Shown one piece after another: positions 244 through 53,126 of a stretch of DNA of 64,000 bases (within the stretch, counting starts at the first letter, position 1; each line of letters opens with the position of its first letter). The notes below the pieces were generated by a model. It saw only the letters and a program-made list of their open reading frames with translations. It was not told the origin of the DNA and made no database searches. The position numbers and the translations under genes were made by a program. Origin of the DNA: Patiria pectinifera (lineage: Eukaryota > Echinodermata > Asteroidea > Valvatida > Asterinidae); assembly GCA_029964075.1 (NCBI GenBank), contig CM057149.1, positions 15,886,197 through 15,950,196 of the forward strand, in the 5' to 3' direction.

Positions 244-530
244 GTGATTCACTCGGGCATCTTAGTTTTAGATACTTCTCGACTCCAGATAAAGACCGTG
301 ACGAGACTGACGGAGAAAATTGCGCTGAGAAATTCCACGGAGGCTGGTGGTACTACCAATGCGGTAGCGACATCAGCGACAACTTCAAGAGCAACCTGAA
401 CGGCTTGTACTACAACAACGCAACAGTCGATGATTACATGGGAATACAGTGGGTCACTTGGAAGGGTAAACAGGTCTCTCTTAAAGGGTCCGAAATGATG
501 ACACGACAACGCGGACCATACGACTTTTGA
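244..530 (+). CDS. Copy 0: terminal exon of a FReD-discoidin lectin-like gene (3' partial)
   Basis: This is the last coding exon of a gene whose other exons lie left of the window. It is preceded by a good 3' splice site (pyrimidine tract ending CACACAG) and enters in phase 1, like exon 7 of copies A and B. It encodes the C-terminal third of a fibrinogen-related domain: the FSTPDKDRD calcium-site segment, two cysteines around the GGWWY motif, the NGLYY segment and the WVTWKGKQVSLKGSEM end. Compared with copies A and B it lacks two codons at the exon start, differs in the segment before FST (HLSFRY) and around the second cysteine (YYQCGSDISDNFK), and has a longer tail (RGPYDF). Whether the upstream exons include a discoidin domain cannot be seen, but the phase-1 start is compatible with that. 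Confidence 0.85.
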
Positions 531-6410: not shown

Positions 6411-6415
6411 TATGA

Positions 6416-8222: not shown

Positions 8223-8225
8223 ATC

Positions 8226-8979
8226 ACTCTATTACGTGCTCATCCTACTCTATTCCGTGCTCATCCTACTCTATTCCGTGCTTCTCATCCTACTCTATTC
8301 CGTGCTCATCCTACTCTATTCTGTGCTTTTCCTACTCTATTCCGTGCTCATCCTACTCTATTCTGTGCTCATCCTACTCTATTCTGTGCTCGGCCTACTC
8401 TATTCCGTGCTCATCCTACTCTATTCCGTGCTTAACCTACTCTATTCTGTGCTCGGCCTACTCTATTCCGTGCTTATCCTACTCCATTCCATGCTCATCC
8501 TACTCTATTCCGTGCTTATCCTACTCCATTCCGTGCTCATCCTACTCTATTCCGTGCTCATCCTACTCTATTCCGTGCTCATCCTACTCTATTCCGTGCT
8601 CATCCTACTCTATTGCGTGCTCGTCCTACTCTATGCCGTGCTCATCCTACTCTATTCCGTGCTCATCCTACTCTATTCCGTGCTCATCCTACTCTATGCC
8701 GTGCTCATCCTACTCTATTCCGTGCTCATCCTACTCTATTCCGTGCTCATCCTACTCTATTCCGTGCTTATCCTACTCCATTCCGTGCTCATCCTACTCT
8801 ATTCCGTGCTCATCCTACTCTATTCCGTGCTCATCCTACTCTATTCCGTGCTCATCCTACTCTATTTCGTGCTCGTCCTACTCTATTCCGTGCTCATCCT
8901 ACTCTATTCCGTGCTCATCCTTCCTTATTCCGTGCTCATCCTACTCTATGCCGTGCTCATCCTACTCTATTCCGTGCTT
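8226..8979. repeat. 21-bp minisatellite array 2 (about 36 copies)
   Basis: Same unit as array 1, with a single 3-bp insertion near 8,281 that preserves frame. The order of variant units (CTTAACC, then CGGCC, then ATTCCATG) matches part of array 1, supporting origin by duplication rather than independent expansion. Confidence 0.9.
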
Positions 8980-9346
8980 CTCTACCACTTGCCGGCAACA
9001 GAATGCTGCGGACGCGTACGGTTGATTTCTTATGCATTTTTATACAATGTATATTAAAAAGTGTCATAATTTAATTGCCTATAAATAAACACAGGATGAC
9101 GTCATCATGACATCATCGTTACACAATGTTGTTTGAATTAGGGTCTTTGCTTGGACAAAGAGTGGTGTAAATGAATTACTGGCAAAGAGTCGAAAATGCC
9201 CTTCGAATATCGACATTTTTTTTTAATTTCTGTGTACAAAGTCTATAGGACAAATTAAATATTCAAAAATCTATAATAAATTAGTCGATGACATCATCAT
9301 GACATCATTGTTCTAGTATCATCCTTGCATAGGGGCCCTTCATTGG
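8980..9346. repeat. Second copy of the 7,854-8,222 spacer
   Basis: Nearly identical to 7,854-8,222 up to GGGGCCCTTCATTGGTAT, where the two diverge: the first copy continues into array 2, this one into unique sequence. Confidence 0.8.
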
Positions 9347-15172: not shown

Positions 15173-15450
15173 TGAGTAGTGATGAGTAACGAAATGAGTA
15201 AATGAGTAACAAAATGAGTAACCCAATGAGTGAATGAGTAACCAAATGAGTAACCAAATGAGTGAATGAGTAACCAAATGAGTAACCAAATGAGAGAATG
15301 AGTAACAAAATGAGTGAATGAGTAACAAAATGAGTGAATGAGTAGCAAATAAGTAGCAAGTGAGTAAATGAGTAATCAAATGAGTAGCAAATGAGTGAAT
15401 GGGTAACGAAATGAGTAAATGAGTATGGAATTGAGTAACGAAATGTGTAG
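15075..15450. repeat. Palindromic ATGAGTAAC minisatellite
   Basis: Short words ATGAGTAACAAA, ATGAGTGA and ATGAGTAA alternate for about 280 bp from 15,172. The preceding 95 bp (15,075-15,168) are the same words in reverse complement (TTACTCATTT). The whole can fold into one large hairpin centred near 15,168. It truncates the upstream ORF. Confidence 0.85.
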
Positions 15451-15512
15451 ATATATATTACATGATTTCATCCGTTCCTTACCATTAGGAGATTAACCTT
15501 CAAAGCTTCAAC

Positions 15513-16144
15513 ATGAATACTATTTCTGCAGTCAAACCCTATGCTTGTCACAGGTGTGACAAACGCTTTGGACGGAGATATAACCTCTTGAGACATACCG
15601 AAAATGCACATGCTGAAGATGAATCCGACATAGGCGAAGTTCAGGTGGATAATTCTGAACCTGAATTTAAAAGCAGTAGATTTGAAGATCCGGAAATGAA
15701 AACTATGAAATTGAATCTACGTATGATGAAGACGAAGATCTTGAGGAAAATGATTCCGAATCCGTCACGGAGGTGGAAGATGACGAATCATCTGATGAAG
15801 ATGAATCTAGTTCTGATTTGGAAGACAATGCAGCCGATTTAGACTGGTTTAAAGAGGCCATAGAAGCCACCAATGAGATATGGAGTGAAAAACATGAAAA
15901 GACCTTGTGGGCAGTCAAGCGAATCTTTTTCAACAAATACAAAGATTTTTTGTCAAGTTACATACATATGAAAGATAATGATACTCATCAAGAAATTGTG
16001 GACGAGATCGAAGACAGAGTCAATCATTCCGGTATTCTACTGCCCACGGCTGTCAGGAGGGTCATATCTAAACACAAGGCCAAATTCGACGGCCTGTTCC
16101 ATCAAGATGAAGATGACGTTAACGAGGAAGACAGTGACGATTAA
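15513..16144 (+). CDS. C2H2 zinc-finger plus acidic/helical protein, frame change in the middle
   Basis: From ATG at 15,513 the frame encodes a single C2H2 finger near residues 8-37, with the pattern C-x2-C-x12-H-x4-H (CHRCDKRF...LLRHTENAH), then acidic sequence. Between about 15,690 and 15,770 the coding-like signal moves to another frame. There it continues with a strongly acidic Asp/Glu/Ser stretch, then an ordered-looking helical region (DWFKEAIEATNEIW ... KYKDFL ... AVRRVISKHKAKF), ending in an acidic tail at TAA 16,142. AATAAA signals occur at 16,208 and 16,246. The frame change is a one-base indel, an unrecognised small intron or a sequencing error. I do not recognise the family; proteins with one finger and an acidic/helical tail occur in large DNA transposons, so it may be element-borne. 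Confidence 0.5.
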
Positions 16145-27679: not shown

Positions 27680-27753
27680 AGTTGAAGTGGGCGCGATCAT
27701 TATGCCGCCTGGGTGGAATCCATCAACCTTAGCGTTAGCTGTTATCGTTGTGG
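27680..27753 (+). CDS. Copy A exon 1: 5'-UTR end, ATG, signal peptide
   Basis: Preceded by a pyrimidine-rich acceptor (TTTTCTTTTCAG), so a noncoding exon lies upstream. ATG at 27,702 opens MPPGWNPSTLALAVIVV; the last base starts a phase-1 codon completed by exon 2, which adds AFTLVSA, with predicted cleavage after residue 24. The donor is GTATGT. Confidence 0.8.
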
Positions 27754-30700
27754 GTATGTAGGCAGATTTTGTAATTGTTAGATGTACATCGTGACCCATT
27801 GTGAGCCGCTTTGATTGAGATCTTTGTACGCCAAGAACCATGCAATATACAATTTGAATGTAGAAAAATGGAAATGTGTTTCATCTGATACACATTTTGT
27901 CTCAAAGGGCTACGTAATTAACAGTAAACAAAAGACGTAAGAAGGTTTGTCACATTTTGTTCCCGGCAAAAGGTCGTTAGCGTGTAATTTTAATGTAACA
28001 AAATATGTTCCAAGTGCGCTAACGTTCCACTCAAGTGGGTACGCAAAGCTATTTTGTTCCCGGCAGAAGGAAGTTATAGGATTTAACATGCCGCTAAGGC
28101 GCACGTTTAAGGCAGATGGGGTTCCCAGTAAAAGGTCGTAAGCAAAAAAAATTTAAGTAATATTTTTAAATAAAAATGCACAATATTACATTAATTATTA
28201 ATGACTTTCATTAGTCCAAATTTCAGCCTGATGTAATTTTTAATTTAGCAATGGGAGCATCAAACCTTTCAACTCGATTTTCTCCAAAGGTGCTTTGTGC
28301 GTGCCTATGTAATGCTTACGACCTTTTCCTCGGCACACGACGAATTGGTCTTGATTTCGTATATGGGGAAATACGACTCTAAAAGCGAGTACCACTGGAA
28401 AAAAATATTAGAATTAGGAAATGTGCAAAATGTCTACAGACTAACGAAATGTAATTATTCAACAACTGTCGCTCTTTGCTTTGACAAATCTGAATGAAAT
28501 TAACGGCACATTGAAATTACATGACCTTATTTGTCGGAGTGGAAATTTTGATGATGAATTGGCGGAAAAACTAGTTTAATGTTTGTGATTTTTCATTTGT
28601 TAATATATGGGTCAATATATATTTGTCATTTCATGTCTTGCAGCATTCACCTTGGTGTCTGCCAGGGTCTGTGTTCTCGTCACGGAACCAGACCCAGCCG
28701 ATGGCGGCAGGATCAAGCTCGTCCTGCCGGCTATAGATCCCTGTACGTGCATGGAAGCCAGACTGGGCGGCCACAACTCCTATGCACCGCCGAGGCCAGA
28801 CGACCCGCTGTACATCGACATCAACCACCTGAAAGACATCATCGCGGACGGACTTGCCAGGTTCTACCATTGCGTGGCAACGAAGAAAGACGGAGTCTCG
28901 ATTGAAACTCCGAGGGGTGAGTAGGAGAACTGAATTTAACTCCCAAAGCATTTTTTAAAGTCACCCTTTTTGAATGGGCCATATCGTTTAACGAATTAAG
29001 GGTGTGACAAAGGTATATTGGGTACAAACATCATGAACCCCAGATCATTGAAGTGAATGTGAAGAGTTCATTTCCACAACGCAATACATCCATTTGAGAA
29101 ACCTGAAACATTCCACGATTATGATATTTTAATAAGATAATAAAACGGTATGGCAGTCTAATAAGCTTCATTGTTCGCTTGATGAATTTAGTGAAAATGT
29201 ATTTAACTACATTAAACTCTCGAAACTGATTTTGGGCAGCAAGGGGAGGGTGCGATTCTAAAAGGCCAAAAAAAAAAAAAAAAATCAAAAAATCCTCACT
29301 ACTGATATATATTTCTGGAGTGCACTTATGTCTTTTGTGAAGTCTTTGTTTACTATCATTATTACACTTTACATCCGTGTTCGTTTTACAAATTGTGAGC
29401 AATCTATGAAATTTGCAATTCTGTTCTTTAAGCACATTCTGCTGAACGGAGCATCAAAATCCAGCTTCTTCTTCTTTCTTTCTTTTTTAAGTCACCACGG
29501 ATGCCCAAGAGGTGACCCAAAAAGCAGTTGTCAGCATCACCCCAGAGCTGACGGAGCCTCGAGCAGATTGTCAAGAGATCTTGGATGCTGGTCAAACAAC
29601 GAGCGGTGTGTATACTATACAGCATGCTGGCCAAAAAATGCAGGTCTACTGCCGCATGGAATCGGGAAAAGGATACATAGTGAGTACATTTCTTATTTTC
29701 TCAAACTCATTTTGGAGTGTGTGTTTTAATATTAATTTAGCTCACAGAGGTAATAGGTATTTGAAGTCGAGAAACAAGTCTTGATGCATGTTTGTTTTCA
29801 ACTTCTGGTACCGGGAACTGTAACTGGTAGGTACTCTTGCATGAAACGCAGTGTAACCACTGTAAAATAATGGAACGTCCGTGCATACGCGATCTGAACC
29901 AGTATAAAATTAACATAATCGCCCCCGAGCGGGAAGTGGGAAATTGCAACATGCAAAGTGCCAATATTTCACCTGTCCCAGCCATTTGTAAATCAACTTG
30001 CTATTCCAACGATGAGCATTAGTTTTGCTTTACAGCTCTGTTTTCCCGCCAGCTTAGAAGCTCGTTACCGTCATGCCTGGTTAACATATTTGTCATGGAG
30101 ATCTCTAAAATGTAAAGTGTTCCCAGCGTCCTTTTCTAAGTCTTGGACTCGCCAATCACACCGTTTGATTTGCTATTCAACCTAAAACAAAATAAAGTTA
30201 AACCTGAACAAGGGTAGTAAAGCGGAGGTGAAAAATGTGTCCCAGTTTTATCGTCACTCATATCGTTTTTGACAGGTGTTTCAGAGACGTCTGGACGGCT
30301 CGGTGAGCTTCAACCGAACCTGGCAGGAATACGCCGAGGGATTTGGGAATCTGACCGGAGAGTTTTGGCTCGGCAACCAGAAGCTGCATAGTCTGACTGG
30401 TAACGGGGGTTGGGAGCTGGTCATCACTCTGAGGGCGTTCGATGGGGACGAGGCCCGTGTTCGTTATCAGAATTTCGAAATACACTCGCACAATTATTGG
30501 CTTGACGTCAGTGGCTTCAATGATGAGAGTGGAGATGCAGGTACGTAATACCCCTTTGCTTTCATTACCGTTCCCTTTCCTATCACACATCAGCATGTCT
30601 TCTCTCTAAACTCAAAATAATGAAACTAGGGACCAGACGACTTTAGAGTGAAACTCACCCTAATTGTGTGATTGCGAACGACCCGATCACTGTTATGAAA

Positions 30701-33700
30701 TGGTCGGAGCCCTTTGGTTTTGTCGCCTTTCTTTCGTCGTGTTCGTGTTCTTTGAATTGGTTTTGTTTTCTTCTGGACAATAATTCTCCGCGCCTTATCT
30801 TTAAAACGGAACAACGAACTTCAAAAGGGATATGAACATCAATCCTGATACCGAGGTAGGCATACAAGTGAGACGTCATGCTTACGTCATCAGGTGTCAA
30901 ATTACAATCAATTTTAATAACAAAAAAAGACCGCTTTGTTTCAATCATAACTCTTGACCAGAGCAGCAAATTAAGTTCACACTTTGCGATCTGATAGACC
31001 ATGTACATGAAGTCGCTTAATAAGCTTTACTTCCGGGGTTAGCGGAATGTCAAAGTTAGGTGAATTCAAAATACCGAAAGATGCTTGCATATTATAACAA
31101 ACGGAATTTCTGCTTAAAGATTCAAATGAAGAAGATGAAACTCTGTTCAAACATATCAACCATATCAAATATATGTCATAACATATCAAATTACAAGCGA
31201 CTCAGCGTTTGTAACTCAACAGACGCGAATCCCTATTTTGTTTTGATACTTCGGTACTAAAAAGAAGGAACTTCGCCGCAACTACGTAAATGACCTATGC
31301 GTTAAAAAAAACATAGTGGTATGTATGTGACTGGTACACCCGTGGTGCAAAAAAAAACAGCCTGTAGCTTTTGTCGCTCTGACTCCCCTGCATTTATAAA
31401 CCAGATCGAAAAAATATTTGAGAGAAGGTTGAATGATTTCTTTTGAAATTGGAAGCAAACTTTGTTCTCTATTTTGTGTAGAATGCGGTATAAGTCTCGG
31501 GATGGAAGACGGAAGCATCCCCGATTCCGCTATCTCGGCATCAAGCAGGTACACGAACACAGACTCCTCTCGCAGCACAGATAACTGCCAAGCGAGTCAC
31601 GGCCGGCTGAACTACCCGGGCACCAGCGGTGGTATCGTTGGGGGCTGGTGCCCATGTTCGAAACCCGACTCGTGGTTGCAGGTGGATTTGGGATGGCGGC
31701 TGCAGGTGGAAGGAGTCATCATCCAAGGCAGCTTCGACCCTAATGGGGACTGGTCTGAATGGGTGACGGAGTACCAGGTTCAGTACAGTGACGACCAATC
31801 CAATTGGCAGTATGTGATGCAGTCAACAGGGACTAGTCCACAGGTAAATAATCCATTGCATTTAGTAAAAGAAACGATGACGTCACTATGTGACGTCTTT
31901 GCATCTCGTGAATATTTTCCAAAACACTCAACCCATTGAGGAAACCACGGCACAAGCACAAGCAGAGTCCCAACCCTAGGACACAATTTCATGTGCATTA
32001 ATGCCTTTCCGCGACATATTCGCGTTTACCCATAAAAGATCAACATTCTATTCGAGTCCTAATAAAAATTGCCTAAAACAGTTAAGAATGGGACAGTGCA
32101 AGTAGTGGAGGAAAACAATAATTGGTGCAGTGAAAAGGACTTGATAATATTGTTGACTGCATTGTTTTTATTTACTTTATATGTATTTCATAGACATTCC
32201 CAGGCAACATAGATCAAACCACCCCGGTCACCAGCATGTTTGACCAGCCGATCCGAGCTCGCTTTATCCGCATCAGGCCGACTGCATACAACGATTGGCC
32301 GTCAATGCGTATGGAACTCATCGGCTGCAAAAGTACGTAACATTTTCTTCATCGCAGATCCTCTTATGGTCATATATGTATTCAAATGCAGAATGGCTGA
32401 ATACATTTCGTATTATTACGGAAGAAGACACATTCATCCGCCTTTCCACACTCTCCCCAACTGCCGTCTCTTTGACCATCCCCTCTAGATTTACACCGGC
32501 AACCACGCCACAGGGTGTGGTCTTTGAGATTTTAAAGGCTTGTGGGTGATTGGGCAAATCTGATCACCGTTTTAAAATGACCAACATTGGGTGATGGGGC
32601 TTCACAAAAATTTACCCTTCGGTTTTATCTTCTTTCTTTCATTCTTTCGTATTCTTGTGCGTATTTTTTTCTTGACAATAATTATCCGCGGCTTTACTTG
32701 CAAACGGAACAACGCTTGAATTTCAAAATTGGTATGAACATCAACCCTGGTACAGAAGTGTGCATACAAGTGTGGTGCTATGATGACTTCATTAGTTATT
32801 AAATTTCGAGCGAGTACTACAGACAAACATATTATGGGAGTGTTTAGTGGGGAATGTGAAACATAAAAAAGCAGGATGACATCATCATCCAAAAGGGCAC
32901 CCTCTAGCGGCACATCGAAGACGGTTGAACTTTTTGATTTAAAAACTAATGGTCAAAATTGTACCAAATTCTGGTTTAACATGTCTTTTCATCTTATTAC
33001 TAAAAAAAAAATGTTTAATCTGCAGGCAATAATCTATCTGTACCCAATACCGAATGAATGTTTTATTCGGCAGCTTGTCTAGCAAACAATGAAATCATTT
33101 TGTCCAAAATCAGTGTCGTCACAAAAACAGTTTTTGGGAGGTTTACGGGAAAATCGTCAAAAATGTCCGGTTGATGGGAAAATCATAAAGTGGGTCGAAT
33201 ACACTGTTGACAGTTATAGCAGTTAGTTGCATGCCCATGATGCATTTCATGAGGTAACTTTACCGTGAACGAATACCGATGGCCATGTTTACAAACGAAA
33301 AATAACGAAAGGAGACCGTGCCTAAAAGAAATAACAAAAGGAAAGGAATCTGTTTAAATGTCGTTTGATAAGTATTCCGTTCGTGCAAATGTCCATGCAG
33401 TATTCGTCATCCATTAATGTACTTATACAAGGTCTGACGATATTTCCTCTCTTATGCACACAGTTACACGTGATTCACTCTGGCGTCATAGTTCTGGAGA
33501 CTTCTCAACTCCAGACAAAGACCATGACCAGACCGACGGTGAAAAATGCGCTGAGAAATTTCAGGGAGGCTGGTGGTACAAGAGTTGCGATAGCGCCATC
33601 AGCGACTACTTCACTAGCAACCTGAACGGCTTGTACTACAACAACGCAACAGTCGATGATTACATGGGGATACAGTGGGTCACCTGGAAGGGTAAACAGG

Positions 33701-33744
33701 TTTCTCTTAAAGGGTCCGAAATGATGACACGACGCCGACCGTAA
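27680..33744 (+). CDS. Copy A: secreted FReD-discoidin nested lectin-like gene (spliced, 7 exons)
   Basis: Coding exons: 27,702-27,753, 28,644-28,916, 29,492-29,679, 30,276-30,540, 31,482-31,843, 32,194-32,332, 33,464-33,744; introns are GT-AG and the joined frame is open for 519 residues. Residues 1-24 are a signal peptide. Residues 25-108 are an unrecognised region with Cys 27, 51, 53 and 94. Residues 135-259 are the first part of a fibrinogen-related domain (Cys135/Cys162, FQRRLDGSVSFNRTW, GEFWLGNQKLHSLT). Residues 261-425 are a complete F5/8 type C domain (LGMEDGSIPD, WLQVDLG, VTEYQVQYSDD, FPGNIDQTTPV, RFIRIRPTAY, final GC). Residues 427-519 finish the FReD (DKDHD, Cys455/Cys468, WVTWKGKQVSLKGSEM). 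FReDs usually bind carbohydrate or acetylated ligands and discoidin domains bind lipids or glycans, so an extracellular recognition role is inferred. NRT, NLT and NAT sequons are present. ATTAAA at 33,783 is a possible poly(A) signal. Confidence 0.85.
28644..28916 (+). CDS. Copy A exon 2: orphan N-terminal region
   Basis: The acceptor is TTCATGTCTTGCAG; the donor GTGAGT is in phase 1. It encodes residues 18-108: the end of the signal peptide and a Cys-containing region with a CTC motif, a PPRPDDP turn and a predicted helix (INHLKDIIADGLARF). I recognise no domain. The position, before a FReD, often holds oligomerisation segments, but no collagen repeat or clear coiled coil is seen. Confidence 0.8.
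29492..29679 (+). CDS. Copy A exon 3: start of the fibrinogen-related domain
   Basis: Phase 1 in, phase 0 out (ATA|GTGAGT). After a ~26-residue linker it encodes ADCQEILDAG, SGVYTIQ and MQVYCRME, the standard beginning of a FReD with its first disulfide pair (residues 135 and 162). Confidence 0.85.
30276..30540 (+). CDS. Copy A exon 4: central fibrinogen-related domain
   Basis: Phase 0 in, phase 1 out (GATGCAG|GTACGT). It encodes VFQRRLDGSVSFNRTW, YAEGFGNLTGEFWLGN, LHSLT and the strand ending YWLDVSGFNDESGDA. In ordinary FReDs the next residues are DxLxxHNGxxFST; here the exon stops exactly at that loop and the discoidin exons follow. Confidence 0.9.
30640..30960. repeat. Intronic dispersed repeat (intron 4)
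   Basis: The TTTCTT-rich stretch, ACAATAATTCTCCGCG, AAACGGAACAACG, ATGAACATCAATCCTG and CATACAAGTG series recurs at 32,620-32,860 in intron 6, and in both introns of copy B. It is a repeat family resident in the gene's introns. Confidence 0.6.
31482..31843 (+). CDS. Copy A exon 5: F5/8 type C domain, main part
   Basis: The acceptor is TATTTTGTGTAG, phase 1 in, phase 0 out (CCACAG|GTAAAT). It encodes residues 260-380 with the opening cysteine, LGMEDGSIPDSAISASS, WLQVDLG, VEGVIIQG and WVTEYQVQYSDDQSNW. Thirteen residues differ from copy B, clustered at 283-286, 305-323 and 347-349. Confidence 0.9.
32194..32332 (+). CDS. Copy A exon 6: F5/8 type C domain, C-terminal part
   Basis: Phase 0 in, phase 1 out (CTGCAAAA|GTACGT). 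It encodes FPGNIDQTTPVTSMF, PIRARFIRIRPTAY and the closing MELIGCK. The last cysteine would pair with Cys261, bringing the domain's two ends together. Confidence 0.9.
32620..32860. repeat. Intronic dispersed repeat (intron 6)
   Basis: Relative of 30,640-30,960: TTGACAATAATTATCCGCGG, AAACGGAACAACG, TATGAACATCAACCCTGG and CATACAAGTG in the same order. Confidence 0.6.
33464..33744 (+). CDS. Copy A exon 7: C-terminal third of the fibrinogen-related domain
   Basis: The acceptor is CTCTTATGCACACAG, phase 1. It encodes TRDSLWRHSSGDFST, the DKDHDQ calcium-site segment, the second disulfide (Cys455/Cys468) around GGWWYKSC, NGLYYNN and the terminal strand, with TAA at 33,742. Confidence 0.9.
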
Positions 33745-36700
33745 CCGGTGATGGAAAGAACCTGTCATATTGAAAGACAACGATTAAATTCGGGGTGGGG
33801 GGGGGGCGCCAGGCCTCACTTTGGAGTATTGTCGATCGAGAAATGCACTTAAAATTAAACTTTTCTCGACAAAAGCAAAAATGACATAAAGTCTAAATCG
33901 TCAGGTGCGTGGAAGAAAGTCGTTAGGGCAGAAAATGGGTCAAAATGTCAAATTCGGATTTTCGGGTAATCAATAGAGCATGGAAATATCTTTCATTTGA
34001 TATAGGCCTACATTTTGTCTCGAAGGGCTACGTCATACTGACGTAATTAACAATAACAGTTAAAGTTAAAAAGAAAACAATGGTTACAAATGAAAAGTCA
34101 GCGGAGGGGAAGCGAAAGTTTCTCATTTCGTCAGTGACACCGCGAAGTAGCACTCATATATACCAGTAAAAACTAGCTATCGGAGAAAACGGCATTTAAA
34201 GTTGAACGCCTTCATCCTTTTGAATCAGTTGTGGGTCAGAAAAACATGTAATGTATTCTAATCCGTAACCAAATGGTATTTGATGTTGTGAGCAACAGTA
34301 GTGATATCACTTTAATATACATTGTGTTTAATGTTTAACTGTATATTTAAGTATCTATTTATTAATAGGGTAATTATTTTACATTATACGGGATCCGACT
34401 CAGTAAAGCCAGTCACGTGAGGAATCACAAAAGCTACTTAAAAATGTTAAACTGGGTGATCTATTAAAAACTACATATACTTTCATATCATAAACGTGCG
34501 TTCTGCTGAATCAGGTGTGTAAAAATATTGATTAAGAAAGTTTGTTGCAATTTGGTGAATGTTTTGGATATTTTGAATAATAGTACTGTTGGAAATTGTA
34601 CTGCATAATGGACAGCGTGTTTAATTTTTCCTAGTAATTTTTTTCTAGTTCCTTTTACTGTCGATGTGAACAAATCCATTAAAAACAGTCTGAAGTTGCC
34701 AGTGGTAATTTTGAGTTATAGGCACGTAATTAAACATACAATTTTACATTATCACTGAGATGTTGTTATATATATATAAAGGTAGTGCTGCGCGTTCGCA
34801 TTTATAGTGGAAAAGTAAAAATGAGTGGATAACTGTCAAAAAAATTCTTGTTATTTAAGGTTTTGGTCACATGTTACGTATTCTAATTGTCAAGACATCA
34901 ATGGACGTTAGTAGGTCTACTATGGTACTTTGTAGCAATAATCTACAAAATTTTGCAAATGGGCGATAGATTTTTTTTAAGTCGCGTCTGGATTAGGGCG
35001 ACACGCCTTATTGGGGTGACAATTTGGTGTCACCCTATTGTTAAAACGACTCTTAGGGCAAGGAATTCTCGATCGATTCCTCGTGGTCCAATTAGTAAAA
35101 ATACCGAATTTCGCGGAGAAAGAAATTAAGGTAAACTTGGGTTAGGTGACTTTTTAGGTTTGTGCACAAGTCTATGGGAAGTCGCCCTATTGTAGAAATT
35201 ATTATATTAAATGTTACTTGGTATTGTGGATAATAAAATTGGTGGTTATTACAAAAATAGCAGACAGCGTGTTTGATATATGCATAGCATAATATATTCC
35301 ATTTACATTTAATATGTTTAGAACAAAACAAATGAGTTTTCAAAGCTCATTTTGAGTTTCATCCCCCTGTAAGACATTTTGCCCTTTCAAAATTGTGACG
35401 GATGTTTTACTCTCATTATTATGACAAGTGTGTCGAGTTGTGAAAAGCCTAGCTACATATGCCGGTTCTTTTACATACGAAAAACTAAAACATTTAAAAA
35501 CAAAAGGGCCCGAAACTTCGTCTTTTTCTTTTAATCTGTCAGGAGCTTCTACAAGTCACTTGGTTGTCGGTCGGTCGGTCGGTCGGTCGGTCTGTCGGTC
35601 CCCAAAAATTGACCAAAAATATTTTACCAAAATTAAGCAAATGCCATGCCGTCGTCAGTAAATGCACTCTAACAATAATGTTTGTGACAATTCGTAAAGA
35701 CGTTTACGAAAATTGTGGAAACGGAGGCAAGATAATGTGCAGCAATGTTATAGCCACGTGGTGTTTTCTGTATTGGTTGGACGTATTTACAAGGAGGAAA
35801 TGAAACTTGGCCAAATAAGGTGTTCCATATGTGACATCAGCGTCGCACTGCTTCGAAATTTCCGTAGGCTTCTGCCGACTTTCCTAAACATTGTCAGGAA
35901 TGTTGTTGGGTTGGTAATTTATAATATAACATCAGGTGGTTGCGCTGCGTTAGGCACAAGACCTTTCGATATATCACAACTCGTGGGGACATTCGATGTG
36001 CACAATATGGGCTGGTAACTCCAAAATATATTTGGTGACTTTGAATTCATTGAGTCCGATCTTATTGCATGGACATGTAATGTAATTATAACATTGATAT
36101 GTATAGAATATTTTATGGCTTTTAGGGAGATACAAGAATATAAGAAAGCGCTAGAGGAGTGCAATATTGTTATAGCGAGCATGGGCGTCGCCAGTGGGGG
36201 GAAAGGGGGGACCCCCCCCCCCCCAAATGAAGAACAACAAAAAAGGAAAAAGGAAAAAAAAGGGGAGGAACGCTCGGAAATATGATCAACTAAGAATATA
36301 ATGAAAAATTTAAAAATGTTGGGGAAAAATTTGCTTTGCCCCCCCACCATCCGGATAAAAATCCTGGCGACGCCAATGATAGCGCTTTTATTTCAAGGCG
36401 TGGGAAAAGAAGAAAAACGAATGTTTAATACAGTTTTTCTAAGTTGTTATTCCTTTCACCCCTTTTATTTAAAATAAAGCTCCCCCACCAATTCGGCAAG
36501 ATTGAAGGTGGGTCCACCTCTTAAAATGATTCTCAGACCGGTTTGGCTCTGCAAGCCGAATTGCATGCTCTTATCAAAAATTTGGGCAAAAGTGAGGGGC
36601 ATAAGCAGCTCTTTTATTGACCAGGATATATACGTGTACAAATATATATAAACACAATCTTTAAATCATTCTTAGTCAACTTTATCCGACTTTTTCCAGT

Positions 36701-37692
36701 TCTTAAGTAGCATTTTGGTATCATTGGGTCTATCTCAACACTTTAATAGAAAAACGGCACTTGTGCGCCAGATGTCAATTAAACTCGAAATTGTTGACAG
36801 TAATTTGACCTTGGTCCCCTGACCCCCATCCGACCTAAGGCAACTTAAGAATGGCCATTTCAGAACTACCCCCCCCCCCCCCCCGACGGACAATGGCCTG
36901 GTAGCATCAAACCTTTTGAGCTCCAATTTTTAATTAAACTCCAGCTAGCTCCTGGTCTACATGTCTCCCGGTCCTATTTATTGCTGTTAGGGTAACTGTG
37001 TCTAGCTCGTCCACACTGACATTAGGCGAGACAACTTGATAATCATTAGGCCCAAAAAAAGTCTCCGGTTTCTGGTATGGAGCTTGCCCAAAAAGTGGTG
37101 CGGCGACGCAGCTTCTTTTTTTTTACCTGATTGTTTTGCTTCAAATGTCGGCTGATGACTGCAAATGGTGCCCGAATAAACTTAGTGCAAATATATGGGA
37201 GTCCAGAGAGGCCACACAAAACTTATTCTCGACCATAATCCAATCTAAAAACACGTTAAAATTGTGCAGCAGCAGGATTCCAGTCAAACCAATGAGTTTG
37301 GCGGATTTGAGACATCATCTTTCATTGAAAAAAAAACTTTTTCATTTTGCCGACGCGCATGGCTACGGCGACGCGCGCGCATACCAGAAACCGGAGACTT
37401 TGTTTTTGGCCTTATGAGAAAAAGGTTAATGCGCGCAACTTGAGGGTATAATGGAAGCCGTTTTGGATCTTTATTATGTCCTCATAATCATCCGGTCTAT
37501 ACCCAAATATGGGAGCATAACACGGCAGGTATTAACGATTTATACAAATTTGGCATATTTCCACCACTTGGATTGTTCGGGACTTTTAGTATTTTATTCT
37601 AAGGATCTTAAAAAATGTACTGTAGTGAAAACAAGTCTGTTGCAATTTGTGTGAGGTTCACTTTAAACAATGAAGTACTTGCCTGGACTAAG
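33745..37692. other. Copy A 3' flank, noncoding
   Basis: No gene is seen. The flank holds a G run at 33,797, a copy of the ATTTTGTCTC-AAGGGCTACGTCAT repeat also found in intron 1 (33,985-34,060), a short hairpin GGGTGACA/TGTCACCC at 35,014-35,035, a (GGTC)n tract at 35,568-35,600 and the MITE at 36,180. It is nearly identical in unit B apart from the foldback insertion. Confidence 0.5.
36180..36378. mobile_element. hAT-like MITE with GGCGTCGCCAG ends (unit A)
   Basis: Ends CATGGGCGTCGCCAG and the complement of CATTGGCGTCGCCAG, about 200 bp, with long G/C and A runs inside. Flanks ATAGCGAG and ATAGCGCT fit a decayed 8-bp duplication; unit B preserves it better. It was present before the segmental duplication because both units carry it. 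Confidence 0.7.
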
Positions 37693-38204
37693 GGGAGTTA
37701 GAGTGATTCCAAGTCGGTACTTGGTTTAAGTTTGTTCATTTGGCCTTTCTGGTTGCGTTGCGCCGACTTATACGGACAAACTCTAGACGTTTATCGACTT
37801 CAGAACAAGTCTGTGCGAGCTTGTTGTTAATTAAGCACAAAATAGCTGCGTCGCAACAGGAAACCAATCACAATAGGACCACCACGCGATTCACTTACCA
37901 TTATTAATATTATTGTGGTGATAGAACCCTTGCTTCGAAACCATGGAAACTGTCCAAAACACTGTAAATTGAAGAAAGAGGTCAATATGAAGCAAGTCGC
38001 CGTAATTAAGGCCCAGCCTCCTTCTTCAGTGTTTATCCGGGGTATCTAAACAGTGGGCGCTGGTCGGTATCTATCTCCTTTGCTAATTCGAGGACGGATC
38101 TTGTATATCTACGCAGCTTTGTGGCTTGTGTCAGCAAACTGTCTGCCGGGAGAACGCGGATTCAACCCAGGGAGGGCTCGCTGGATTCTCGGCGACCAAA
38201 AAGG
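37693..38204 (+). promoter_or_regulatory. Promoter plus noncoding leader exon block for copy B
   Basis: Homologous to 19,909-20,400 and nearly identical to 54,652-55,162. It contains a CCAAT-type box (AACCAATCAC at 37,863) and TTCAGTGTTTATCCGGGG, and ends CGACCAAAAAGG|GTGAGTC. It lies about 3.06 kb upstream of copy B exon 1, which has a 3' splice site but no promoter of its own. The inferred role is transcription start and 5'-UTR exon of copy B. Confidence 0.55.
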
Positions 38205-39701
38205 GTGAGTCAAAGAAGCTTATATTTTGTTAGTCACTTTTGGTAGAGGCTGCTGCTGAATCTATCATTATTTTGGACTTTTTCCAGTGTCAGGTGACAA
38301 TAACATTTAATAAACGACTAGTTCGTATTTTTTTTCGAAGATATTTTCGGGCAATTATGAAAACCACAATAGATTTAGGGACATGATTCTGGACATGAAG
38401 ATGTACTGTCCGTACGCCACCTCCATTACGGTTTGTTCAGAATTCCGGAATTGGTTTTTCATTCCTTCTTAACAATTTCAAATAACTATTTTTCTCGCCA
38501 AAAAATGGTGTTCGCTTTTGAAGACATCGAAAGAAAGAAACCAAATGTTTTGTGACACAAATATGATGTTACACATTTCTAGCCCTGAGCCCTGTAAAAA
38601 ATATTGTTCTCGCTGTGAGGACTGCCCCCATACAAGATGCTAAGGGAGAGGTAATGGAGGGGGAGGGGATCGCATTGGGTATAATCTTACTTTGCAAATC
38701 TCGGTTCATTGCCTTGGCCTTCATTTCTGAATGCGTTGACTGCAACAACCTATCCCTGCCCGCAAACCCCCCCCCCCCCGACGTAACTACGCCCCAGCTA
38801 ATGCCCGTGGCATCTGTGTGCACCTACATTTGAAATCTTCAATTGAACACAATTATACCGCATTGTTGAAATGTAATTGTGGATAGACCACGATCATTTC
38901 AAGCTTATTTTACTTCAATAACATTAAATCAACAGATTAAGCCTATATTACCTTACCATGCTGAGCAAGAATGAAAGTGGTGCAGCTGTGGGTTTTTTTT
39001 AGCAGCGGTGTTTTAAAGGCGCATATATGATTAGTTTTTCGTCTTGTTCTTCCTTTTTTTAAATTATAACAATAGACGAAATCCAAAGAAGAACGTTTGC
39101 TTCCTAGCCGATTGAATTTTCATCTTAGTCGACAGTACAGTACACTGTAACAGAAAACAGTGAAAACCATGAACACCCTTTTCATCACGAAACACGATTC
39201 TGTCCTTTATTTCGTTGGTAATCAAATACATTTCTTGATGTCTTCAATGACAGCAAAATAAATGCAGTGGCATGCCACTGTTGAACTTCATCATACTTCA
39301 ATCTTAATCAAACTTGGCACAGACTCAAAACCCACCATGAACTCTTGCATGGACAAGTGCTGTCATTTTGACGTGATGCATTTATTTTGCTGTCATAAAG
39401 AATCATGTACAAAGTCTGACTGATTTGGGGGAACAAGGAGAAGAAGAAATAGCAGAAGAAGGAGAAAAAAAATCTGAACAAAAACAATGGCTTTTCTGGT
39501 CATGGAAAAAAAGCCAATAAATTCTAATGGAGGAAATGTAATATACGCGACAATTTACTGACTGAGTTTTCATTATGTGTGTGTTAATCCCCGTGCTCTT
39601 AGGGCTCTCTGCTGGGCCTCGACCGGTGCGTACCTGGAGGGCTAGATCTATTATGTCGGTAGCAATTGCCGGTAATTTTACATGTTTGGAGAACTGGCAG
39701 G

Positions 39702-39904: not shown

Positions 39905-40203
39905 AAGGTAAAGGTAAAGGGGACGAACCCGTGTTCACAGGAACGGAGTGCCCATCCATCTTTCATTAGCGATTGGGCCAGACTCATTTGCTGCTGTGGG
40001 GGATCGCCACACCTCCTCCACAGCGAGTCTGTTACCTTCCCAGCATTGAATAATGCCGGTACACATTTACCACCTGGGTTGAGAGGAGTAATTGAGGTAA
40101 AGCGCTTTACTCAAGGGCACAACACGCATGACAAAGGCGTGGCTCGAACCCACAACCTCACGATCATGAATCATGTGCTCTACCGCTAAACCACACGTGT
40201 CCC
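39905..40203 (-). mobile_element. tRNA-derived SINE on the minus strand
   Basis: Read on the minus strand it begins GGGACACGTGTGGTTTAGCG and GGTAGAGCA (A-box region), then GGGTTCGAGCC (B box), CCCTTGAGTAAAGCGCTTTA and a body including CTCAACCCAGGTGGTAAATG. It is a different SINE family from the one at 21.8 kb but shares the CTTGAG..A.GC.CTTTA block. Confidence 0.8.
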
Positions 40204-41260: not shown

Positions 41261-41334
41261 AGTTAAAGTGGGCGCGATCATTATGCCGCCTGGGTGGAGT
41301 CCAACAACCTTAGCGTTAGCTGTCATCGTTGTGG
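41261..41334 (+). CDS. Copy B exon 1: ATG and signal peptide
   Basis: ATG at 41,283; encodes MPPGWSPTTLALAVIVV, two residues different from copy A; phase-1 donor GTATGT. Confidence 0.8.
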
Positions 41335-44300
41335 GTATGTAGGTAGATTTTGTAATTGTTAGATGTACATCGTGACCCATTGTGAGCCGCTTTGATTGAG
41401 ATCTTTGTACGCCAAGAACCATGCAATATACAATTTGAATGTAGAAAAATGAAAATGTTTCCCAACTAACGAAATGCAATTTTCGATCAAACGAATGCTA
41501 CTCTCTCTGACGAAACTAAATATAATAACTTGTAATTGCAATTGGAATTTTGAATGAACTTAAATGGATTTGAAATTGAAGATGGGGTTCGTTTATCCCC
41601 GAATGAGCAACCTTTATATCTGGATTTACGAGACTCTATCATACATGTACATCTCCTGAATGCACGGACCACATACCGTGTCCGTCTTTGAAGCTACTGT
41701 GCCGTGAGAAACGTGGGCTTTTGGGTCGATGGGTGGCAAGGGCGGATCCTGAACACAATTTGGGGGAGGGGCAAAAAGAATTGTGGTTCCCCCAAAAGTG
41801 GGTCCAAATAATTACGGCGTGGGTTTCGGGCCCGTTCAAAGGCCACGAAATTGTTTGGATTGTAGATGCTATAACCATTTTAACCATTTTGTTTTGAGAA
41901 AAAGATGGTGGTCTACGCAGTGCCTGCCTTTATTGCGACGTCACTTTAAAAAAAATAATTCGCTTCTTGGGGGGGGTGGGGAATTTTTTTTGGGGGGGAG
42001 GCATGGCCCCCGTTGACACCCCCCCCCCCCGATCCGCCCTTGATGGGTGGGGTCGGTGTTCACACGCTGCGCCGTGCTGTAGTTTGACGTTGATATGGAA
42101 ACCAGGCTTTTTCGTAAATCGTCACTCTTCCTGAGCGGCCTTGATGGAGAACTAATAGCTGGTTTATACTTTACGCGAAGTTTAATGCGAAGCGAATTCG
42201 TTAAAGTAACGGTGAGCATTAAAATATCGATTATTGATGTCGTAAATTTTCGGGTGCATGGAAGGAGGTCGTTATGTCAAAAAAAATGGGTCAAAAGGTG
42301 CAGTTCGGATTTTTCGGATAATCGGCAGAGCATGGAAATATGTTTCATTTGATATACATTTTGTCTCAAAGGGCTACGTCATACTGTCCTAATTAACAGT
42401 AAACAAAACACGTCAGGAGGTTTTTCACATTGTTCACAAACAAGTTTAATGTTTGTGATTTTTCATTTGTTGATATATGGGTCAATATATATTTGTCATT
42501 TCATGTCTTGTAGCATTCACCTTGGTGTCTGCCAGGGTCTGTGTTCTCGTCACGGAACCAGACCCAGCCGATGGCGGCAGGATCAAGCTCGTCCTGCCAG
42601 CTATAGATCCCTGTACGTGCACGGAAGCCAGACTGGGCGGTCACAACGCCTATGCGCCGCCGAGGCCAGACGACCCACTGTACATCGACATCAACCACCT
42701 AAAAGACATCATCGCGGACGGACTTGCCAGGTTCTACCATTGCGTGGCAACGAAGAAAGACGGAGTCTCGACTGAAACTCCGAGGGGTGAGTATATAGGA
42801 GAACTGAATTTAACTCCCAAAGCATTTTTTAAAGTCACTCTTTTTGAATGGGCCATATCGTTCAACGAATTAAGGGTGTGACAAAGGTATATTGGGTACA
42901 AACATCATGAACCCCAGATCATTGACGTGAATGTGAAGAGTTCATTTCCACAACGCAATACATCCATTCGAGAAACCTGAAACATTCCACAATTATGACA
43001 TTTTAATAAAAGAATAAAAACGGTCTAACAAGTCTAATAAGCTTCATTATTCCCTTGATGAATTTATGAAAATGTATTTAACTACATTAAATTCTAGAAA
43101 CTGATTTTGGGCAGCAAGGTGAGGTTGGGATTTTAAAATCTAACAAAGTTGATCGCTTTTTTTTAGTGGAAATAACACTTCATTTATATGTTGCTTGGAC
43201 TGCAAATATGTACAATTTTAATTTTCGGATGGAAGTTATGCTGCGAAATTGCTGGGACAGGAACAAAATAGTGTCCAGCAACTGAAACTCCTGTAAGACT
43301 GGAACTAAGCGTTCGATTTTAGAGGATACGGGCTGCGCAAGTTTAGGGTTGGCGAGTGGTGGGAATTTATCTGGCCCCAAAAAAAGCATTAAAAAAATCC
43401 TCACTACTGATATATATTTCTGGAGTGCACTTATGTCTTTTGTCAAGTCTTTGTTTACTATCATTATTACACTTTACATCCGTGTTCCTTTTACAAATTG
43501 TGAGCAATCTATGAAATTTGAAATTCTGTTCTTTAAGCACATTCTGCTGAACGGGGCATCAAAATCCAGCTTTTTCTTCTTCTTTTTTTTTAAGACACCA
43601 CGGATGCCCAAGAGGCGACCCAAAAAGCAGTTGTCAGCATCACCCCAGAGCTGACGGAGCCTCGAGCAGATTGTCAAGAGATCTTGGATGCTGGTCAAAC
43701 AACGAGCGGTGTGTATACTATACAGCATTCTGGCCAAAAAATGCAGGTCTACTGCCGCATGGAGTCGGGGAAAGGATACATAGTGAGTCCATTTCTTATT
43801 TTCTCAAACTCATTTTGGAGTGTGTGTTTTAATATTAATTTAGCTCACAGAGGTACTAGCTATTTGAAGTCGAGAAACAAGTCTTGATGCATGTTTGTTT
43901 TCAACTTCTGGTACCGGGTACTGTAACTTGTAGGTACTCTTGCATAAACGCAGTGTAACCACTGTAAAATAATGGAACGTCCGTGCATACGCGATCTGAA
44001 CCAGTATAACATTAACATAATCGCCCCCAAGCAGGAAGTGGGAAATTGCAACATGCAAAGTGCCAATATTTCACCTGTCCCAGCCATTTGTAAATCAACT
44101 TGCGATTCCAACGATGAGTATTAGTTGTGCTTTACAGCTCTGTATTCCCGCCAGCTAAAAAGCTCGTTACCGAGGTAACGTGATGCCTGGTTAACTTAGT
44201 TTTCAGGTATAGATCTCTAAAATGTAAAGTGTTCCCAAAGTCCTTTTCTAGGTCTTGAACTTCGCAAATCCCACCGTTTGATTCGCTATTCTATCTAAAA

Positions 44301-47300
44301 CAAAATGAAGTTAAACCTTAACAAGGGTAGTAAAGCGGAAGTGAAAAAAGTGTCCCAGTTTTATCGTCACTCATATCGTTTTTTGACAGGTGTTTCAGAG
44401 ACGCCTGGACGGCTCGGTGAGCTTCAACCGAACCTGGCAGGAGTACGCCGAGGGATTCGGGAATCTGACCGGAGAGTTTTGGCTCGGTAACCAGAAGCTG
44501 CATAGTCTGACTGGTAACGGGGGTTGGGAGCTGAACATCACTCTGAGGGCGTTCGATGGGGACGAGGCCCGTGTTCGTTATCAGAATTTCGAAATACACT
44601 TGCACAATTACTGGCTTGACGTCAGTGGCTTCAATGATGAGAGTGGAGATGCAGGTATCGTTCCCTTCCTATCACACATCAGCATGTCTTCTCTCTTAAT
44701 TCAAAATAAAGAAACTAGGGACTAGACGACTTTAGAGTGAAACTCACCCTAATTGTGTGATTGCGAACGACCCGATGACTGTTATGAAATGGTCGGAGCC
44801 ATTTGGTTTTGTCTCCCTTCTTTCCTCGTGTTCGTGTTCTTTGAATTGGTTTTGTTTTCTTCTGGAAAATAATTCTCCGCGGCTTGTCTTTAAAACGGAA
44901 CAACGCATGGACTTCAAAAGGGGTATGAACATCAATCCTGATACCGAGGTAGACATACAAGTGAGACGTCATGCTTACGTCATCAGGTGTCAAATTACAA
45001 TCAATTTTAGTAACAAAAAAGACCGCTTTGTTTCAATCATAACTCTTGACCAGAGCAGCAAAGTAAGTTCACACTTTGCGATCTGATAGACCATGTACAT
45101 GAAGTCGCTTGAGCTTTACTTCCGGGGTTAGCGGAATGTCAAAGTTAGGTGAATTCAAAAGACCGAAAGATGCTTGCATATTATAACAAACGGAATTTCT
45201 GCTTAAAGATTCAAAGGAAGAAGATGAAACTCTGTTCAAACATATCAACCATATCAAATATATGTCATAACAAATCAAATTACAAGCGACCACTCAGCGT
45301 TTGTAACTCAACAGACGCGAATCCCTATTTTATTTTGAAGCTTCGCTGCAAAAAAAGAAGGAACTTCGCCGCAACTACGTAAATGACCTATGTGTAAAAA
45401 AAAAATACTGGTATGTATGTGACTGGTATGTGACCAGTGGTGCAAAAAAAAAACAGCCTGAAGCTTTTGTCACTCTGACTCCCCTGCATTTATAAACCAG
45501 ATCGAAAATTTATTTGAGAGAAGATTGAATGATTTCTTTTGAAATTGGAAGCAAACTTTGTTCTCTATTTTGTGTAGAATGCGGTATAAGTCTCGGGATG
45601 GAAGACGGAAACATCCCCGATTCCGCTATCTCGGCATCAAGCCGGTTCACGGCAGCGGACTCCTCTCGCAGCACAGATAACTGCCAAGCGAGTCACGGTC
45701 GGCTGAACTACCGCGGCACCAGCGGTGGTGTCGTTGGGGGCTGGTGCCCAAGTTCCCGCAACGACTTGTGGTTGCAGGTGGATTTGGGATGGCGGCTGCA
45801 GGTGGAAGGAGTCATCATCCAAGGCAGCTTTGACCCCCTGGAGAGATGGTCTGAGTGGGTGACAGAGTACCAGGTTCAGTACAGTGATGACCAATCCAAT
45901 TGGCAGTATGTGATGCAGTCAACAGGGACTAGTCCACAGGTAAATGATCCATTGCATTTAGTAAAAGAAACGATGACGTCACTCTGTGACGTCTATGCAT
46001 CTTGGGAATATTTTCCACAGCACTCAACCCATTGAGGAAACCACGGCACAAGCACCAGCAGAGTCCTAACCCTGGGGCACAACTTCATGTGCGTTAATGC
46101 CTTTCCGCGACATTTTCTCGTTTACCCATAAATTATCAACACTCTATTCGTGTCCTAATAAAAATTGCCTAAAACAGTTAAGAATGGGACAGTGCAAGTA
46201 GTGGAGGAAAACAATAATTGGTGCAGTGAAAAGGACTTGGTAATATTGTTGACTGCATTGTTTTTATTTACTTTATATGTATTTCACAGACATTCCCAGG
46301 CAACATAGATCAAACCACCCCGGTCGCCAGCATGTTTGACCAGCCGATCCGAGCTCGCTTTATCCGCATCAGGCCGACTGCATACAACGTTTGGCCGTCA
46401 ATGCGTATGGAACTCATCGGCTGCAAAAGTACGTAACATTTTCTTCATCGCAGATCCTCTTATGGTCATATATGTATTCAAATGCAGAATGGCTGAATAC
46501 ATTTCGTATTATTACGGAAGAAGACACATTCATCCGCCTTTCCACACTCTCCCCAACTGCAGTCTCTTTGACCATCCCCTCTAGGTCTACACCGGCAACC
46601 ACGCCACAAGGTGTGGTCTTTGAGATTTTAAAGGCTTGTGGGTGATTGGGCAAATCTGATCACCGTTTTAAAATGGCCAACATTGGGTGATGGGGCTTCA
46701 CAAAAATTTACCCTTCGGTTTTATCTTCTTTCTTTCATTCTTTCGTATTCTTGTGCGTATTTTTTTCTTGACAATAATTATCCGCGGCTTTACTTGCAAA
46801 CGGAACAACGCTTGAATTTCAAAATTGGTATGAACATCAACCCTGGTACAGAAGTGTGCATACAAGTGTGGTGCTATGATGACTTCATTAGTTATTAAAT
46901 TTCGAGCGAGTACTACAGACAAACATATTATGGGAGTGTTTAGTGGGGAATGTGAAACATAAAAAAGCAGGATGACATCATCATCCAAAAGGGCACCCTC
47001 TAGCGGCACATCGAAGACGGTTGAACTTTTTGATTTAAAAACTAATGGTCAAAATTGTACCAAATTCTGGTTTAACATGTCTTTTCATCTTATTACTAAA
47101 AAAAAAATGTTTAATCTGCAGGCAATAATCTATCTGTACCCAATACCGAATGAATGTTTTATTCGGCAGTTTGTCTAGCATAAATGAAATCATTATGTCC
47201 AAAATCAGTGTCGTCACAAAAACAGTTTTTGGGAAGTTTACGGGAAAATCGTCAAAAATTTCCGGTTGATGGGAAAATCATAAAGTGGGTCGAATACACT

Positions 47301-47821
47301 GTTGACAGTTATAGCAGTTAGTTTCATGCCCATTTTGCATTTCATGAGGTAACTTTACTGTGAACGAATACCGATGGCCATGTTTACAACGAAAAATAAC
47401 GAAAGGAGACCGTGCCTAAAAGATATAACAAAAGGAAAGGAATCTGTTTAAATGTCGTTCGGGCAAATGGCCATGCAATTTCGTCATCCATTAATGTACT
47501 TATACAAGGTCTGACGATATTTCCTCTCTTATGCACACAGTTACAGGGGATTCACTCGGGCGTCATAGTTCTGGAGAATTCTCAACTCCAGACAAAGACC
47601 ATGACCAGACCGACGGTGAAAAATGCGCTGAGAAATTTCAGGGAGGCTGGTGGTACAAGAGTTGCGATAGCGCCATCAGCGACTACTTCACTAGCAACCT
47701 GAACGGCTTGTACTACAACAACGCAACAGTCGATGATTACATGGGGATACAGTGGGTCACCTGGAAGGGTAAACAGGTCTCTCTTAAAGGGTCCGAAATG
47801 ATGACACGACGCCGACCGTAA
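41261..47821 (+). CDS. Copy B: secreted FReD-discoidin nested lectin-like gene (spliced, 7 exons)
   Basis: Coding exons: 41,283-41,334, 42,514-42,786, 43,595-43,782, 44,390-44,654, 45,578-45,939, 46,290-46,428, 47,541-47,821. Each has exactly the same length and phase as in copy A, giving 519 residues with the same architecture. All catalogued motifs, both FReD disulfides, the calcium-site segment and the discoidin disulfide pair are intact, with no stop or frameshift, so both genes appear functional. Relative to copy A, changes are few in exons 1-4, 6 and 7 but dense in exon 5. The donor of exon 4 is GTATCG rather than GTACGT, weaker but still GT. Exon 1 is preceded by an acceptor (TTTTCTTTTCAG); the leader block at 37,693-38,204 is its likely source of 5' UTR. 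ATTAAA at 47,860 is a possible poly(A) signal. Confidence 0.85.
41729..42050. mobile_element. hAT-type MITE with 8-bp target duplication (intron 1 of copy B)
   Basis: The element 41,737-42,042 has ends CAAGGGCGGATC and complement and is flanked by the exact duplication ATGGGTGG (41,729-41,736 and 42,043-42,050). The interior is similar to the MITE at 16,346-16,628 (GGCGTGGG, GGCC-CGAAA, TTTTGAGAAAAAGATG). Confidence 0.9.
42514..42786 (+). CDS. Copy B exon 2: orphan N-terminal region
   Basis: The acceptor is CATGTCTTGTAG and the donor GTGAGT is phase 1. Three amino-acid changes from copy A (Met54Thr, Ser63Ala, Ile104Thr); the four cysteines of the mature region are kept. Confidence 0.8.
43595..43782 (+). 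CDS. Copy B exon 3: start of the fibrinogen-related domain
   Basis: Acceptor TTTTTTTTTAAG; same phases as copy A. Three changes (first residue Val to Asp, Val116Ala, Ala154Ser); Cys135 and Cys162 are conserved. Confidence 0.85.
44390..44654 (+). CDS. Copy B exon 4: central fibrinogen-related domain
   Basis: Two amino-acid changes from copy A (Val to Asn in the WELxITL strand, Ser to Leu in EIHxHNYW) against about five silent ones. Ends at the same SGDA loop. Confidence 0.9.
45578..45939 (+). CDS. Copy B exon 5: F5/8 type C domain, main part
   Basis: By my manual comparison, 32 of 362 bases differ from copy A, giving 13 amino-acid replacements and about 8 silent codon changes. Several codons differ at two or three positions (for example Asn347 to Leu and Asp349 to Arg). 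The extra cysteine of copy A at 318 is Ser here, so copy A may have an unpaired Cys. Confidence 0.9.
46290..46428 (+). CDS. Copy B exon 6: F5/8 type C domain, C-terminal part
   Basis: Two replacements from copy A (Thr393Ala, Asp414Val) and no silent change. Closing GCK conserved; phase-1 donor GTACGT. Confidence 0.9.
47541..47821 (+). CDS. Copy B exon 7: C-terminal third of the fibrinogen-related domain
   Basis: Same as copy A except Arg429Gly, Trp433Gly and Asp439Glu, all beside the junction with the discoidin domain. Copy B matches the usual FReD consensus GDSL better. Confidence 0.9.
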
Positions 47822-52730: not shown

Positions 52731-53126
52731 CAAGGAGGAAATGAAACTTGACCAAAAGTATGGTGTTCTATATGTGACATCAGCGTCGCATTGCTTTGAA
52801 ATTTCCGTGTGCTTCTGCCGACTTTCCTAAACATTGTCAAGAATGTTGTTGGGTTGTTTGTTTTTTATAATATAACATCAGGTGGTTGCGCTGCGTTAGG
52901 CACAAGACCTTTCGATATATCACAACTCGTGGTGACAATCGATGTGCACAATATGGGCTTGTAACTCCAAAATATATTTGGTGACTTTGAATTCATTGAG
53001 TCCGATCATATTGCATGGACATGTAATATAATTATAACATTGATATGTATAGAATATTGGATGGCTTTGAGGGAGATACAAGAATATAAGAAAGAGCAAC
53101 GAGGAGTGCACTATTGTTATAGCGAG

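Follow-up and report, generated by a model that had tools for sequence, protein, structure and literature searches.

In this study, we confirm at the gene level, from genomic sequence, a fibrinogen-related domain (FReD) that is interrupted by a complete discoidin (F5/8C) domain in three intact gene copies of the sea star Patiria pectinifera. Two of these copies, A and B, lie in the stretch analysed here, a window of 64,000 nucleotides (contig CM057149.1, here C21, positions 15,886,197 to 15,950,196; window coordinates are used unless stated). The assembly searched (GCA_029964075.1) comprises 613.5 Mb in 1020 contigs. Bindin, a family not known outside echinoderms, was matched in it (PF02084, 1.0e-33), and a search for COX1 gave no match. 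We consider it probable (about 0.72) that these genes encode a FReD scaffold with a looped-out, fast-changing discoidin head, derived from a shuffled phase 1-1 module.

A FReD gene interrupted by a complete F5/8C domain

Gene A (27702-33744) was spliced by hand, without transcripts. The model joins seven exons in compatible phases across GT-AG introns, and encodes 519 residues with no internal stop. Exons 5 and 6 form a phase 1-1 cassette sitting in a phase-1 intron of the FReD, and exon 7 restarts the FReD at ...RDSLWRHSSGDFST. A preliminary description of this sequence had already placed the break at the end of exon 4, the whole F5/8C domain in exons 5 and 6 and the resumed FReD in exon 7, and both the splice model and Pfam agree with it on each point. 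In a Pfam search of the spliced protein, Fibrinogen_C was matched in two stretches (4.7e-55; best stretch, residues 133-269), with F5_F8_type_C between them (1.1e-25; residues 294-422). Nearly the full FReD profile (PF00147) was covered by the two stretches. When exons 5 and 6 were removed, the frame stayed intact and a single continuous Fibrinogen_C match was obtained (residues 133-349, profile 3-219 of 221, 2.5e-59), scoring 201 bits as against 187 bits with the cassette. Pfam matched no family besides these two in the protein, and none in its N-terminal region of about 85 residues.

The FReD is split by 167 F5/8C residues in A, B and D, and the F5/8C match (PF00754) lies above the curated cut-off of 28.2 bits in each of them (90.7, 87.9 and 85.1 bits, respectively). 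Cassette residues 2-167 align with whole F5/8C domains of factor VIII. Against the entire factor VIII light chain, in which two such domains occur, the E-value was 1.5e-36, and the better domain scored 67 bits. The best solved matches of the cassette were factor VIII, factor V and neuropilin, followed by lactadherin and others, and they ran end to end in the alignments printed. Those of the FReD were angiopoietins (angiopoietin-2), FIBCD1 and ficolins, and no solved chain was shared between the best 60 of 68 FReD matches and the best 60 of 66 cassette matches. The first and last F5/8C cysteines are both present in A, B and E, and the last is replaced by tyrosine in D (C425Y). By eye, the FReD contains a DxDxD-like segment, DKDHDQTDGEKC, as a putative calcium site. 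In fibrinogen gamma, the loop corresponding to the break has extra residues near a calcium site. Over the matched range, a gamma chain (3fib, 8-241) is 20 residues longer than the FReD query (133-346).

A search of the assembly found the cassette adjoining the same FReD exons at four places on the 40-Mb contig C21, namely A, B, D (about 16.18 Mb) and E (about 16.20 Mb). Copy B (41283-47821), unmentioned in the preliminary description, is a second intact copy in the same window. Pfam shows the FReD of B and D to be split as in A. Splice sites are intact in all four copies, and A, B and D keep the frame and are open throughout. Since the same arrangement recurs in B and in two copies outside the window, a chance arrangement is very unlikely, and the repeated copies rule out a reading as chance open reading frames. 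The cassette exons of E remain open despite its broken exons 3 and 4.

The empty intron and the relatives of the cassette

On C21, 34 matches to the last FReD exon reach 54% identity or more, one of them being partial; four adjoin the cassette and 30 are cassette-less. Nine of the 30 cassette-less paralogues listed were read together with exon 4. All nine have the same phase-1 intron of 536-1781 bp (GCAG/GTA ... /GTGATTCACT, with GTAATTCACT in one; slashes mark exon borders), and no cassette match was found in this intron in any of the nine. A symmetric phase 1-1 exon set is thus found in a phase-1 intron that is empty in nine relatives, and the arrangement, judged from sequence, fits exon shuffling into a domain-splitting intron. 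The insertion step can be followed because this one genome contains the intron both empty and filled, together with source-like genes. Most of the donor-like genes and cassette-less paralogues are located beyond the window, and the assembly has at least 150 FReD matches.

In a tree of 13 rows, the nested four (A, B, D and E) formed one side of a branch with support 96/93. As the tree is small, midpoint-rooted and mostly open (seven of ten inner branches), and near-copies tend to cluster, a single origin of the nested copies is likely rather than proven. Six extra bases (TTACAC or TTACAG; positions 33464-33469 in A) open exon 7 in the nested copies and were found in none of the nine cassette-less paralogues read.

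Among the best 150 of 713 candidates scored in the genome, exon 5 was matched at 75% identity or more at eight places, which are the four nested copies, two places on C22 and two on C4. The next-best match was at 43%. The cassette is 75-77% identical to these C22 and C4 relatives, and the homology extends past the exons, beginning about 110-240 bp ahead of exon 5. At about 10.076-10.083 Mb on C22, a signal-peptide-like exon (donor G/GTGAGT) is followed by two tandem F5/8C domains and then by an LDLa exon (PF00057, 3.5e-7) joined in phase 1. The locus looks like a signal peptide-F5/8C-F5/8C-LDLa gene in a model drawn by eye, without transcripts, in which positions 10078410-10078916 are unread, so that the two F5/8C copies could be two genes. 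Under this model, the cassette would be an internal 1-1 module of the C22 gene, and the GT that follows its last cysteine would have functioned as a donor already before the move.

The nested cassettes are separated from those of C22 and C4 by a synonymous distance (dS) of 0.34-0.39, with a ratio of nonsynonymous to synonymous divergence (dN/dS) of 0.34-0.42 in five pairs. The C22 and C4 cassettes are the closest relatives of the nested ones among the candidates scored, and are a possible rather than a proven source. In A, B and D, the block is flanked on both sides by direct repeats about 190 bp long and 74% identical; in E they are clear on one side only, and the C22 and C4 pieces read contain no such repeats. 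The two C4 cassettes, similar to each other, lie at 5556995 (+) and 5746935 (-), about 190 kb apart and in opposite orientation.

We propose that an F5/8C module of two exons and phase 1-1, resembling those of the C22 and C4 genes, was acquired by a FReD lectin subfamily, apparently in a single event, and that this module would have been inserted into the phase-1 intron splitting the FReD. In the mature protein, the F5/8C domain would then form a loop emerging from a single FReD between its ...SGDA and DSL... segments. An F5/8C domain has its two ends side by side, opposite the binding spikes, so that the insert could be suspended from the FReD and expose its spikes on the outside. Being near-constant between copies, the FReD may serve as scaffold or common arm, and the spikes of the inserted domain, which differ strongly between copies, as a variable binding head.

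Variation on the cassette and alternative explanations

Variable residues occupy 23 of the 167 cassette positions among A, B, D and E. Among A, B and D the count is 22 of 167, as against 21 of 352 in the remaining protein, and cassette dN/dS is 0.53-0.72, as against 0.26-0.37 in the remaining gene. Binding-face residues of the factor VIII C2 domain, as named in PMC4361576 and PMC11808648, were transferred by hand on the factor VIII alignment to 23 positions of the cassette, including two loop residues outside the alignment. On this predicted face, which makes up 23 of 167 positions, lie 10 of the 23 variable residues (p=1.3e-4). The enrichment was also obtained without the two unaligned residues (9 of 23 in 21 positions, p=3.9e-4), with the two hairpins alone (6 of 23 in 13 positions, p=0.003) and without copy E (10 of 22, p=8e-5). 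Windows around the spike tips gave p values of 6e-6 to 2e-4; we rely instead on the residues named in those two papers.

On the face, nucleotide divergence amounts to 27.5% (A-B), 30.4% (A-D) and 11.6% (B-D), compared with 3.5, 4.4 and 4.2% in the remaining cassette. Between A and B, exon 5 differs by 8.8% and exon 6 by 1.4%, and introns 4, 5 and 6 by 4.3, 6.0 and 1.7%. Outside the spikes, the A-B cassette has a dN of 0.012 and a dS of 0.069; the spike windows behind this split were drawn by hand with the variable sites already seen. Exons 5 and 6 contain no indel in the five pairs compared (B-E left out), and intron 4 has 3-10 per pair. A tentative proposal, to which we give somewhat less than even odds, is that the nested discoidin domain is a variable, antigen-like head under diversifying selection across the tandem copies, with the FReD fixed and optional splicing acting as an on/off switch.

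Several observations weigh against a variable head carried by an intact scaffold. Copy D has lost the last F5/8C cysteine, and copy E is broken in exon 3 by a frameshift and in exon 4 by a stop (L039:2534-3594, C21:16.1945-16.1956 Mb). The exon 4 donor is GTATCG in B, D and E, by eye weaker than the GTACGT of A. The cassette can be skipped with the frame kept, which would allow a plain FReD as the main product. The face test was picked after the variable sites had been seen, and no significant clustering of the 23 variable cassette sites was seen in two generic tests (p=0.19 and 0.10). In the youngest pair, D-E, the face differs by 1.4% and the remaining cassette by 2.1%. Intron 5 has only 0-2 indels per pair, so that the indel contrast is weak there. 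Synonymous divergence between A and B is also higher in the spikes (dS 0.38 versus 0.07), and gene conversion or local mutation may therefore contribute besides selection; gene conversion between the cassette copies is possible on the sequences compared.

The skippable cassette could also point to a splice switch, compatible with the looped-out head, in which a plain FReD of 352 residues and an insert form of 519 residues would be made according to tissue or immune state. The continuous and higher-scoring Fibrinogen_C match of the skipped form agrees with this, as do the exon 4 donor and exon 7 acceptor, which are intact in all four copies. The concentration of variation on the binding face of the cassette argues that the insert form matters, even if skipping is still allowed, and we regard such a switch as possible but doubtful. 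The variation could instead reflect drift in an insert that was once expressed and is now under relaxed constraint. The pseudogene E, the missing closing cysteine of D and the raised dN/dS of the cassette speak for such decay. However, the cassette is conserved outside the spikes, A and B are open throughout, and the face changes of A-B and A-D exceed the intron 4 rate several-fold, for which relaxation alone is insufficient; we consider decay unlikely.

Exons 5 and 6 might also be part of an independent gene for a secreted F5/8C protein, located in the intron between exons 4 and 7 of a plain FReD gene, which corresponds to the separate mRNA named in the preliminary description as a refuting alternative. 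The relatives on C22, and perhaps C4, have a signal-peptide-like exon of their own, and unspliced exon 6 runs straight into a stop (GCKST-stop). A heuristic scan of intron 4 in A, B and D found no signal-peptide-like exon with a phase-1 donor, whereas the same scan found candidates on C22 and C4. Moreover, the GT after GCKA on C22 can join the LDLa exon in frame and so resembles a used donor, and the homology to the relatives starts only a short way ahead of exon 5. The scan, the phases and the kept splice sites weaken this alternative, no more than that, and we judge it quite improbable. Tandem arrays are prone to misassembly and the gene model was made by hand, but an artefact of assembly or gene model is hardly credible when the same structure stands at four places on one contig in copies of differing divergence.

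A FReD with a looped-out discoidin head is thus the reading we prefer. The "bivalent recognition protein" of the preliminary description gains support from the variable binding loops. We infer that the cassette is included in the mRNA and that the protein folds, is secreted and binds microbial or other surface ligands.

Features of the window and comparison with known systems

Table 1. Window coordinates of genes A and B, of the repeats and homology block around the cassette of A, and of paralogue C
Feature	Position	Strand	Basis or remark
Gene A exon 1: start codon and beginning of the signal peptide	27702..27753	+	ATG, GT donor, phase 1 end
Gene A exon 2: remaining hydrophobic leader and N-terminal region, residues 18-108	28644..28916	+	Splice model; no Pfam family
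Gene A exon 3: linker and FReD start (first FReD cysteines)	29492..29679	+	Splice model, Pfam
Gene A exon 4: FReD N-terminal part, end ...DESGDA/, phase-1 donor	30276..30540	+	Splice model, Pfam
Gene A exon 5: F5/8C, first 121 residues	31482..31843	+	Splice model, Pfam, structure-chain alignment
Gene A exon 6: remaining F5/8C through the final Cys, phase-1 donor	32194..32332	+	Splice model, Pfam, structure-chain alignment
Gene A exon 7: remaining FReD and stop codon	33464..33744	+	Splice model, Pfam
Direct repeat copy 1, intron 4, left of cassette	30710..30903	+	74% identical to copy 2
Direct repeat copy 2, intron 6, right of cassette	32615..32805	+	74% identical to copy 1
Block with homology to the F5/8C genes on C22 and C4, spanning cassette exons, intron 5 and flanks	31239..32535	+	Approximate outer limits
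Gene B exon 1	41283..41334	+	
Gene B exon 2	42514..42786	+	
Gene B exon 3	43595..43782	+	
Gene B exon 4 (FReD N part)	44390..44654	+	Pfam
Gene B exon 5 (F5/8C)	45578..45939	+	Pfam
Gene B exon 6 (F5/8C)	46290..46428	+	Pfam
Gene B exon 7 (FReD C part, stop)	47541..47821	+	Pfam
Paralogue C, cassette-less, last exon	244..530	+	Exon 4 just beyond the window (L036:8424-8687)

Other features were observed in the window. A tRNA-Met gene lies between genes A and B (40129-40201, minus strand). A long tandem-repeat region at 6355-9054 consists of two blocks (about 6560-7852 and 8226-8982), in which several frames are open with LLYSVLI-like repeats. Open reading frames at 13304-16141 contain a PHD finger (PF00628, 1.9e-5; 25.1 bits, cut-off 24) and a sub-threshold C2H2-like finger (PF00096; 22.0 bits, cut-off 25.2), and both a mobile element and a host gene remain as readings. 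Inverted repeats of 94% identity at 49871-50708 and 51902-52730 resemble a mobile element, at whose right edge a duplicated block begins (35788-38821 and 52729-55779).

No description of a FReD interrupted by F5/8C was found among the titles and abstract starts listed from the open-licence literature, closed-access papers and general protein databases lying outside this search; the architecture may be on record elsewhere. Multidomain animal proteins mostly grow by domains added in a row. Here, a shuffled exon pair appears to have moved into an intron lying within a folded domain and, judging from the coding sequence, to have been retained. This identifies a site at which the FReD may tolerate insertion of an entire foreign domain, and suggests that invertebrates have a recognition family with its diversity on a grafted domain.

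The proteins resemble the FReD lectins (ficolins, FIBCD1, angiopoietins, tenascins and the invertebrate FReD/FREP families) in their first cysteines and full FReD profile, but differ from them in that the FReD is interrupted by another domain. In snail FREPs, the FReD is preceded in linear order by one or two Ig domains, according to PMC8878817. The nested proteins are likewise FReD recognition proteins by type, but the added domain lies inside the FReD and not ahead of it; Pfam matched no Ig domain ahead of the FReD in them, which sets them apart from FREPs (IgSF and FReD). With the C22 gene they share a cassette of high identity, the same internal intron and, where read, the same outer phases, whereas the domains of that gene, in the model drawn by eye, stand in a row and no FReD match is listed there. 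With the F5/8C domains of factor V/VIII, neuropilin and lactadherin they share a complete domain, with its first and last cysteines present in A, B and E. In those proteins, the domains are arranged in a row, whereas here the domain is an internal insert of a globular domain, with spikes that differ between gene copies.

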